Assembly (NCBI GenBank): GCA_016183655.1
Contig: JACPEH010000008.1
Coordinates: forward strand, 310,001-374,000
Direction of reading: 5' to 3'
From: Rhodocyclales bacterium
GTDB taxonomy: Bacteria; Pseudomonadota; Gammaproteobacteria; Burkholderiales; Rhodocyclaceae
DNA: 64,000 bases
This document shows positions 1,639-27,464 of this stretch, piece after piece. The number at the start of each line of letters is the position of its first letter. The first letter of the stretch is position 1. Under the pieces are notes generated by a model that saw nothing but the letters and a program-made list of their open reading frames with translations, was not told the origin of the DNA and ran no database searches. The translations under genes were made by a program, and so were the position numbers.

Positions 1639-1871
1639 CCTAGAAACCGCAGTTGAACGCGCCCGCCGGTGCGCCCAGGCTGGTGTCTGGCACGAAGCGA
1701 CGACGCGGCAGGCTCCCGCCTGCAAGGAGGAGCGACAAAGCCAGGCGCCGGCCTGGGTGTGCCGGCGGGCGCGTAGCGGACTCACCCAGCGGGTGATCCT
1801 GGTCGAAGGCGGTAAACTCAATGTCCATGCGGCGTTCCCAATGCAATCAGCGGTCAACTGCGGTTTCTAGG
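1639..1871. mobile_element. MITE-like non-autonomous element A (233 bp, 18-bp perfect TIR, 5-bp TSD ATGAT)
   Basis: CCTAGAAACCGCAGTTGA at 1639-1656, exact reverse complement at 1854-1871; direct repeat ATGAT at 1634-1638 and 1872-1876; internal imperfect inverted repeat 1657-1680/1751-1774 (21/24). Confidence 0.85.
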
Positions 1872-24357: not shown

Positions 24358-25782
24358 ATGTCCAGCGCCCTCAGCGCCCCGCACGGCGAACAGTATTTGG
24401 AAAACCGCATCTTCAGCGAAATCAAGGTCGGCGACAGCGCGTCGCTGATCCGCACGCTGCGCCCGGAGGACATCCAGCTGTTCGCGGTGATGACCGGCGA
24501 CATCAACCCGGCCGTCGTCGACCAGGAATTCGCCAACAACGGCATCTTCCGCGAGGTCATCGCGCACGGCATGTGGTCGGCCTCATTGATCTCGACGGTG
24601 CTCGGCACGCAGTATCCCGGCGCCGGCACCATCCTCGTCGACCAGTCGCTGCATTTCATGCGGCCGGTGACGATCGGCGACACCATCACCATCACCATCA
24701 CCGTCAAGCAGAAGTTCGAACACAACCGCCATGTGCTGTTCGACTGCAATTGCACCAACCAGGAAGGGGTGCCGGTCATCCAGGGATCGGTCGAGGCGCT
24801 GGCGCCGCAGGAGAAGATCAAGCGCCAGAAAATCACCCTGCCCGACGTGCTGATCTCCGACAAGCACGGCCGCTACCAGCAGCTGCTGGCCAAGGTGCAC
24901 GGCCTGCCGCCGATCGACATGGCGGTCGCCCATCCCTGCGACTTCGAATCGCTGAAGGGGCCGCTGGTCGCCGCCGAGGCCGGGCTGATCGAGCCGATCC
25001 TGGTCGGCCCGGAGAGCAAGATCCGCGCAGTCGCCGAAGAACACGGCTTTGACATCCGCCCGTTCCGCATCGTCAACGTCAAGCACAGCCACGAAGCGGC
25101 GGCGATGGCGGTGACGCTGGTCAGGAACGGCGACGCCGAAGCGCTGATGAAGGGCAGCCTGCATACCGACGAACTGATGGGCGAGATCGTCTCGCGCGCC
25201 GCCGGCCTGCGCACCGGCCGCCGCCTGAGCCACGTCTTCGTGATGGACGTGCCGACCTACCCGAAGCCGCTGCTGATCACCGACGCCGCGATCAACATCG
25301 CGCCGACGCTGGAGGAGAAGGTCGACATCATCCAGAACGCGATCGACCTCGCGCACATCCTCGGCTGTCCGGAACCGAAGGTGGCGATCCTCTCGGCCGT
25401 GGAAACGGTCAACCCGAAGATCCAGTCCACGCTCGACGCCGCGGCGCTGTGCAAGATGGCCGATCGCGGGCAGATCAAGGGCGGCATCCTCGACGGCCCG
25501 CTCGCCTTCGACAACGCCGTGTCGATCATCGCCGCCAAGACCAAGGGCATCAAGTCGGCGGTCGCCGGCCACGCCGACATCCTGGTCGTGCCCGACCTCG
25601 AATCCGGCAACATGCTGGCCAAGCAGCTCGAATACCTGGCCAACGCGCTGACCGCCGGCGTCGTCCTCGGCGCCAAGGTGCCGATCGTGCTCACCAGCCG
25701 CGCCGATACCGCCGAAACGCGTACCGCCTCGTGCGCCGTCGCCGCGCTGATCGCCCACGCCAAGCGCAAGGCGGGTGCATGA
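24358..25782 (+). CDS. Bifunctional enoyl-CoA hydratase (MaoC-like)/phosphate acetyltransferase
   Basis: N-terminal MaoC hot-dog (FAVMTGDINPAVVD...), C-terminal PTA domain (LKGSLHTDELM-like, KGGILDGPLAFDNAVS). Confidence 0.93.
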   Translation: MSSALSAPHGEQYLENRIFSEIKVGDSASLIRTLRPEDIQLFAVMTGDINPAVVDQEFANNGIFREVIAHGMWSASLISTVLGTQYPGAGTILVDQSLHFMRPVTIGDTITITITVKQKFEHNRHVLFDCNCTNQEGVPVIQGSVEALAPQEKIKRQKITLPDVLISDKHGRYQQLLAKVHGLPPIDMAVAHPCDFESLKGPLVAAEAGLIEPILVGPESKIRAVAEEHGFDIRPFRIVNVKHSHEAAAMAVTLVRNGDAEALMKGSLHTDELMGEIVSRAAGLRTGRRLSHVFVMDVPTYPKPLLITDAAINIAPTLEEKVDIIQNAIDLAHILGCPEPKVAILSAVETVNPKIQSTLDAAALCKMADRGQIKGGILDGPLAFDNAVSIIAAKTKGIKSAVAGHADILVVPDLESGNMLAKQLEYLANALTAGVVLGAKVPIVLTSRADTAETRTASCAVAALIAHAKRKAGA

Positions 25783-26951
25783 GCCGCGCCATCCTGACGA
25801 TCAACGCCGGCTCGTCGTCGATCAAGTTCGCGCTCTATGCGCTGAACGGCGAGCTGGCCCGCCATCCCTACCTGAGCGGCCAGATCGACGGCATCGGCGC
25901 CGAGGCGTGCCTGCTGGCGAAGAACGCCGACGGCGAACGCATCGCCAACGAGGCGCTGCCGCCGGGCGTCCGGCACCACGAGGCGTTCGCAGCGCTGCTC
26001 GCCTGGCTGGGTTCGCACCAGCAAAACTCGCGGCACATCGTCGCCGTCGGCCACCGCGTCGTGCACGGCGGCGAGCTGCTCTCGCAGCCGCTGCGGCTCG
26101 ACGACGTCGCCGTGCAGACGCTGGAGCGCTTCGTGACGCTGGCGCCGCTGCACCAGCCGCACAACCTGAACGGGATCAAGGCTCTGTCGGCCAGCCTCCC
26201 CGGCGTGCCGCAGATCGCCTGCTTCGACACCGCCTTCCACCGCACGCAGCCGCCGCTGGCGCAGCTCTTCGCCATCCCGCGCGCGCTCACCGCCGAAGGC
26301 GTGCGCCGCTACGGCTTCCACGGCCTCTCCTACGAGTACATCGCCCGCGTGCTGCCGGAGCACAGCAGCCGCGCCGGCGGCCGCGTGATCGTCGCCCACC
26401 TCGGCAACGGCGCCAGCATGTGCGCGATGGTGGACCGGCGCAGCCAAGCCACTTCGATGGGCTTCACCGCGATCGACGGGCTGATGATGGGCACCCGCAC
26501 CGGCGCGCTCGATCCGGGCGTCATCCTCTACCTGCTGCAGGTCAAGGGAATGGATGCCAAGGCGGTGGAAAAGCTGCTCTACAAGGAATCCGGCCTGCTC
26601 GGCGTCTCCGGCCTGTCGCAGGACATGCGCACGCTGCTCGCCAGCGACGACGTGCGCGCCGCCGAGGCCGTCGACCTCTTCTGCTACCGCATCGTGCGCG
26701 AGATCGGCGCCCTCGCCGCCTGCATCGGCGGCATCGACGCGCTGGTATTTACCGGCGGCATCGGCGAACACGCCGCCGAAGTGCGCCACCGGGTCTGCGC
26801 GGCGCTCGGCTGGATGGGCATCGACCTCGACCCGGCGGCCAACGCCGCCGGCCAGACGCGCATCAGCACCCCTGGCAGCCGCAGCGAAGCCCTGGTCATC
26901 CCGACCGACGAGGAATGGATGATCGCGCAGCACACGCGCGACCTCCTTTAG
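25779..26951 (+). CDS. ackA: Acetate kinase
   Basis: ILTINAGSSSIKFALY, GHRVVHGG, FDTAFH, GFHGLSYEYI, GGIGEHAAEVR; ATGA overlap with preceding gene. Confidence 0.95.
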   Translation: MSRAILTINAGSSSIKFALYALNGELARHPYLSGQIDGIGAEACLLAKNADGERIANEALPPGVRHHEAFAALLAWLGSHQQNSRHIVAVGHRVVHGGELLSQPLRLDDVAVQTLERFVTLAPLHQPHNLNGIKALSASLPGVPQIACFDTAFHRTQPPLAQLFAIPRALTAEGVRRYGFHGLSYEYIARVLPEHSSRAGGRVIVAHLGNGASMCAMVDRRSQATSMGFTAIDGLMMGTRTGALDPGVILYLLQVKGMDAKAVEKLLYKESGLLGVSGLSQDMRTLLASDDVRAAEAVDLFCYRIVREIGALAACIGGIDALVFTGGIGEHAAEVRHRVCAALGWMGIDLDPAANAAGQTRISTPGSRSEALVIPTDEEWMIAQHTRDLL

Positions 26952-27244
26952 GGCGTGTTCACAGTAGATTCATGGGCGCGACGATGTCTGCGTGGGATGT
27001 CCCCCAAGGGGATTTCCTGCGGGGCACAGCGCAAGGCGCGGTGGCGCCGCTTGGCTGGTGCCAGGCAAGCCGCCGCAACGCCGCGATGCGCCCACGCAGA
27101 CATCGTCCCGGAGGGTTGCTGGGCAAAGGCGGCGTCTGCTTCGTTGCACGGCTTGCCCGCACATCAGTGCGGGCGGTGCCGCGCGCCTCGCATCCACCGC
27201 CTTTGCGCAGCAACGCGCTCCACGAATCTGCTGTGAACACGCCC
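26951..27244. mobile_element. MITE-like non-autonomous element B (294 bp, 21-bp TIR 20/21, TA target duplication)
   Basis: gggcgtgttcacagtagattc (26951-26971) vs gaatctgctgtgaacacgccc (27224-27244); TA at 26949-26950 and 27245-27246; two internal stem-loops. Confidence 0.87.
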
Positions 27245-27464
27245 TAAGCACAAACCGCTACGGCCACCCGGAGACGTCCGGGCGGCATTCCCGACACCCG
27301 CCGATTAGCTCACGGCGGGATGCAAAATGCGCCCGGCCGATGCCGAGCCGGCACCGGCGAAGTTCGTTTGTGCGCCGCACAAAAATCCGTCGAAAATCGA
27401 CCGGCAACTTCGCTAAGCCAGCGATTTCAAAGCTTTTGCAGCGCCACTCCGGCCGCAATACACA

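Follow-up and report, generated by a model that had tools for sequence, protein, structure and literature searches.

The acetate kinase gene ackA of a Rhodocyclales bacterium ends in a stop codon which is formed in part by an inserted repeat. This locus raises the question of what the repeat is, how it could have entered a stop codon and whether such a location is common to its relatives. The window, i.e. the whole stretch of DNA analysed, comprises 64,000 nucleotides, and ackA lies at 25779..26951 on the plus strand (390 aa; PF00871, E 1.1e-114). In all likelihood the repeat is a multi-copy, non-autonomous MITE with a conserved core, which is moved in trans by IS5-family transposases and has inserted into the TAA stop of ackA.

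The MITE itself occupies positions 26951..27244 on the plus strand. The left terminal inverted repeat, GGGCGTGTTCACAGTAGATTC (26951..26971, plus strand), and the right one (27224..27244, minus strand) match at 20/21 positions, and the inverted repeat reaches 28 nt at 93%. An earlier note on this DNA had described a 294-bp element with 21-bp terminal repeats, a TA at both edges (26949..26950 and 27245..27246) and two internal stems; all of these are present in the sequence, the stems extending over 26977-26996/27091-27110 (95%) and 27115-27139/27190-27214 (84%). Between the terminal repeats lie two homologous hairpin modules in inverted orientation, module A (GCG...CCC; 26978..27109, plus strand) and module B (27113..27216, minus strand), and the central linker CCC-GGA-GGG (27107..27115, plus strand) joins the two inverted halves. 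R1, a covariance model of the module, gives 44.3 bits for module A (E 4e-7), which is also seen in the alignments, and 88.4 bits for module B (E 1.7e-16). Module A is enlarged by a 27-bp insert at 27000..27026 (plus strand) reading TCCCCCAAGGGGATTTCCTGCGGGGCA, which is missing in L003 and L051 and because of which the window copy measures 294 bp compared with 271 bp in its relatives. In its RNA form the MITE folds with -211.7 kcal/mol versus -139.9 +/- 5.1 kcal/mol for shuffles (z -14.2). No transposase was found in the internal open frames.

The ackA protein ends ...RDLL and is followed by TAG (26949-26951), which is made up of the TA of the target and the first G of the MITE. We compared the orthologous loci of five congeners and found the element absent in all five. 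Four of these ackA genes end at the same residue (DLL/DLI), with TGA as stop codon in three cases and TAA in one; the fifth codes for a few extra residues, followed by TGA. The silent conversion of TAA to TAG that the earlier note had proposed is thus well supported by the sister proteins, which show that the insertion left the ackA protein unchanged. The ancestral TAA itself we infer from the right flank, CCCTA followed by A, so that the stop before insertion was probably TAA. With an in-frame target NNY-TAR and a G at both ends of the MITE, TAG is rebuilt on either strand and the protein is not altered.

The window element is not a chance structure, since its own genome holds five further copies. 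Two of them are full-length (271 bp, 88-89% identical to the window MITE) and three are deleted (about 97-98% identical); others were found in relatives. These dispersed copies, the absence of a transposase gene and the IS5-type ends bear out the MITE-like character assigned to the element before any search had been made. Convergent pairs of the 12-nt end TAGGGCGTGTTC, 268-272 bp apart, occur in many genera of the family. The exact pattern with both ends was found in 63 stretches in other species of the genome collection, mostly Betaproteobacteria, its hosts being Dechloromonas, Azonexus, Sterolibacterium, Uliginosibacterium, Burkholderia, Ottowia, Comamonas, Variovorax, Methylobacillus and others. 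It is also present in MAGs of Endomicrobium, Treponema, Opitutaceae and Thermoguttaceae, the last two known by their ends alone; the Treponema match reads like a deletion derivative of an IS. A plasmid search with the window MITE as query gave no match. Several genera contain mini-derivatives of 44-57 bp, barely more than the two ends (L080, L109, L110, L115, L123, L146).

The TA duplication and the type of the ends had been likened to those of the IS5 group, and autonomous IS5-family elements with near-identical ends indeed exist in the host clade. They measure 793-911 bp and have TA duplications. L134 (793 bp) comes from the own genome, L262-L267 and L280 come from relatives, and the encoded proteins match NF033580, PF13340 and DDE_Tnp_1. 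The ends flanking the NF033580/DDE_Tnp_1 genes read GAGTGTGTTCACAGTAGCC in the own genome, GAGCGTGTTCACAGTAGCC in L262 and GGGCGTGTTCTCAATC in L280. On the better side, the end of the own-genome IS differs from that of the window MITE at 2 of the first 17 bases, and the IS ends vary (TTCACAGTAG, TTCTCAATC, TTCACACTA) in parallel with the MITE ends. When ten MITE-rich genomes were searched with the L134 transposase protein, only one other partner emerged; the further partners came from a family search in 150 relatives. The target is YTAR in 64/72 MITE insertions and in 30/31 IS insertions. The MITE is probably mobilised in trans by an IS5-family transposase. Such a DDE transposase would cut at YTAR and duplicate the TA, and the window MITE would in this way have inserted into the TAA stop of ackA. 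Its terminal G would turn the TAR target into TAG on either strand, making stop codons silent sites. No R1 module was found in ten IS loci and the interior is therefore, as far as tested, not IS-derived; with this exception the element is a MITE by every defining feature tested.

In most of the elements CCC-NNN-GGG marks the boundary between two halves, each 133-137 nt long; in the Burkholderia and Comamonas copies the linker is longer. The two halves are homologous in inverted orientation, i.e. the interior is an inverted dimer of hairpin modules of about 104 nt. Each module (101-107 nt) has invariant GCG...CCC ends and consists of an outer stem, an internal loop in which GCAAGGCGC and GCAACGCCG are conserved, a second stem and, at the tip, a hairpin that varies. 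R1 modules, mostly as inverted pairs, were present in 12/12 genomes first tested. The core was found in about 61/299 sampled Pseudomonadota genomes (E 1e-6; 13 candidates per genome scored), a fraction which is approximate because L355, L361 and L363 are among the few loci without an element in the same orientation. This core is a payload carried by many different terminal repeats, the outer end types including GGGCGTGTTC, GGGTCTGTTGACG, GAGTGCCTRACA, GAGCCTGTCTCAT, GGAGCCTGTCGGACTT, GAACGTGTTTACG and more. Elements with other ends show duplications of TA or of 3 bp (TAA, TTA, TGA) and mostly measure 263-268 bp without the duplication. In the own genome, the element L426 has 78% of 222 core bases in common with the window MITE, whereas 68% of the end positions differ. 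In one 2.7-Mb genome (G398, L367-L379) the same core is combined with five or more end types, and duplications of both 2 bp and 3 bp occur.

The location in stop codons is a property of the whole MITE family, as shown statistically with 72 distinct insertions for which flanking sequence was available, each empty site being reconstructed by fusing the two flanks at a single TA. Genes were called with a home-made iterated Markov caller, and the null made use of the same caller and the same flanks; an earlier, non-iterated caller had missed ackA and given 27/72 stops, while the iterated caller recovered ackA. The TA of a TAA or TAG stop codon was used by 39/72 insertions, the remainder being intergenic except at most one. 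From tetramer-matched YTAR sites in the same flanks 6.6 such insertions are expected, or 11.2 if interior sites are left out, and stop use compared with non-interior YTAR gives an OR of 6.9 (Fisher, p 8e-12). Enrichment depends on the distance from the gene end, with 6.7x at the stop, 3.7x at 0-30 bp, 2.3x at 31-100 bp and 0.56x beyond. Pfam matches (GGDEF, Peripla_BP, NamZ, HDOD, Phos_pyr_kin) confirm that independent copies have used the stops of real genes. Of 31 IS copies of the same group, 3 lie in stop codons, 24 are intergenic and 4 interior, and no gene-end gradient was seen among them. The host-adjusted difference in 3'-end placement between MITE and IS amounts to z = 4.0, a contrast that is strong but not final because the two sets come from different hosts. 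In some insertions (L168, L171, L201:3350-3539, L206, L215) a single TA had been shared by the stops of two convergent genes, and each end of the MITE now supplies one of these stops.

Copies could become concentrated at gene ends either via strong selection or via core-dependent targeting. We lean slightly towards rapid selection for sites at mRNA 3' ends, in which large hairpins would be harmless or mildly helpful. Tandem gene contexts are enriched 7.6x and convergent ones 6.1x, and this similarity counts against a simple terminator-avoidance model. The other possibility is that the transposition complex of a hairpin-bearing element prefers gene ends, for instance as transcription-linked or cruciform-prone DNA. 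Of the 40 copies that share at least 90% identity with another one, and are presumably young, 23 are already at stops, the same fraction as among older copies; this fits a target preference as well as fast selection, since strong selection could work equally fast. A choice of target would also agree with the lack of bias in IS copies which have similar ends and no core, but the YTAR target is common to IS and MITE. Likewise, elements with the same core and mostly other ends abut a stop codon in 15/53 cases, although enrichment is lower in this set (about 10% expected from matched YTAR sites). We know of no IS5-family mechanism linking insertion to gene ends, and we regard target choice as rather unlikely.

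Alignment of whole halves of the core misplaced the outer stem, and the modules were therefore trimmed and realigned. In 42 diverse modules 86% of the cells pair, with a covariation score of 0.72 versus 0.19, and 425 cells have changed on both sides versus 147 in shuffles and 104-182 in slid controls. Among the stem mismatches of the non-redundant set, G-T and A-C are equally rare (61:49, p 0.29), so that the pairing does not look selected in the RNA of one strand. Selection on the stems at the RNA level was rejected on this count; a redundant count of 53:35 was only suggestive. Since the orientation of the MITE relative to the gene is also random (12 vs 10), it looks as if the palindromes are preserved at the DNA level, whether through selection or through correction by template switching, and for the core a role at the DNA level is favoured over one at the RNA level.

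It is conceivable, but in our view doubtful, that the stems are non-functional and the core is ordinary MITE filler, replication template switching having perfected quasi-palindromes with covariation as a by-product. This would account for the nearly exclusive Watson-Crick pairing of the stems, in which G-T is not in excess, and also for a Comamonas copy (L186:2320-2423) whose module interior is turned round compared with related copies inside a retained outer stem, the outcome to be expected if a hairpin mediates inversion. Stem correction alone, however, accounts neither for the conserved unpaired GCAAGGCGC and GCAACGCCG nor for halves that keep to 133-137 nt in different orders and with different end types. 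Domestication at mRNA 3' ends, with the hairpins serving as terminator, mRNA stabiliser or RNase III substrate and helpful copies being kept, is improbable, because no intrinsic-terminator tail was found, gene orientation is random, both mismatch types are equally rare and the congener orthologues do without the element, even though the very stable fold, the 3'-end location and the RNase III and mRNA-stability effects reported for Correia and ERIC elements (PMC10969869) would be in line with it.

We tentatively put forward, at somewhat less than even confidence, that the core is the real unit of inheritance. It would be an ancient non-coding mobile element of constant structure and length, found across Pseudomonadota and in Endomicrobium MAGs, which swaps its ends to ride many different IS5-family transposases of the 2-bp and 3-bp duplication types, and it would be the core, rather than the transposase, that brings about the concentration at stop codons.

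Several known systems resemble the elements described here. MITEPsy1 of Pseudomonas syringae, for which transposition in vivo was shown, is likewise non-coding with IS5-family-like ends and a CTAG or YTAA target; compared by description, it differs in its 100 nt and its 4-nt duplication, and neither a two-module core nor a stop-codon bias was reported (PMC3189936). Among the Pseudomonas fluorescens repeats R0, R2, R178 and R200 some are MITE-like with IS ends, as here, and R178, with 101 bp and internal inverted repeats, comes by description near to one module; in the accessible part of that report, stop-codon insertion, an inverted dimer or a core shared under other ends are not described (PMC2718517). 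TRIP1 of Escherichia coli has GC-rich full forms of 264-273 bp with a double-Y fold and a short form lacking about half, and it sits 38-96 bp after stop codons, not in them (PMC10888264). Size and fold are alike, but TRIP1a of K-12 (aqpZ-lysO locus) gave no R1 match at E 10 and membership was rejected. The Correia/NEMIS elements of Neisseria are also non-autonomous and hairpin-forming with a TA target and reported mRNA effects; by description, they are mostly found upstream of genes (PMC10969869). REP/REPIN sequences are palindromes in inverted pairs, many of them at gene ends, and these palindromes have 20-40 bp, are linked to RAYT transposases and carry GTAG or CGTC as a tag (PMC3733652, PMC3116915), whereas the modules here have 101-107 nt, invariant GCG...CCC ends and a position between IS5-type ends, for which reason we do not count them as REP/REPIN. 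An Rfam scan of seven loci gave nothing above the gathering score and only sub-threshold microRNA matches.

A general 3'-end bias of repeats was known before: in P. fluorescens they are more often located between convergent gene ends, explained there as the least harmful place (PMC2718517). New here, and not remarked on in the earlier note, are the stop-codon bias, unlike the related IS copies, the inverted dimer of two homologous modules with its near-constant length and very strong base-pair covariation, and the occurrence of one core under many terminal repeats, absent from the tested IS copies and from Rfam. We found no description of the core, the end exchange or the stop-codon bias in the literature covered, with most subscription journals and ISfinder outside this coverage, and we therefore make no claim of priority.

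MITEs are usually regarded as IS leftovers with unimportant interiors. In the present family it is the interior that is conserved, with exchangeable ends, so that a directing influence of a hairpin core on insertion or retention at gene ends can be put to the test. Copies in or beside stop codons can spread without gene damage, and the combination of a TAA- or TAG-containing target with a stop-restoring first base shows in a clear-cut way how a transposon can spread in gene-dense genomes and leave the genes intact. For annotators this means that a transposon is the source of some of the gene stops in these genomes.

Two smaller observations concern repeats in the window copy and elsewhere in the window. 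The 27-bp insert belongs to a unit with the consensus GTCCCCCAAGGGGACTTCCTNCGGGGC that is dispersed across several families of the order, within genes as well as within MITEs, and whose length is a multiple of three. It was found in 7/80 genomes and 0 times in the reversed control, sometimes in tandem runs of 2-5; apart from the window, its loci are L065, L075, L130, L132, L318, G493:C73:3514-3646 and G494:C31:2278-2356. A second MITE-like element lies in the window at 1641..1869 on the plus strand, with CTAG at both edges and the ends AAACCGCAGTTGA and TCAACTGCGGTTT, which are unlike those of the ackA element. Its edges lie within an inverted repeat (1633-1660/1850-1877, 93%), and it holds one half-module at 1665-1763 (R1 33.4 bits, E 8.7e-5).
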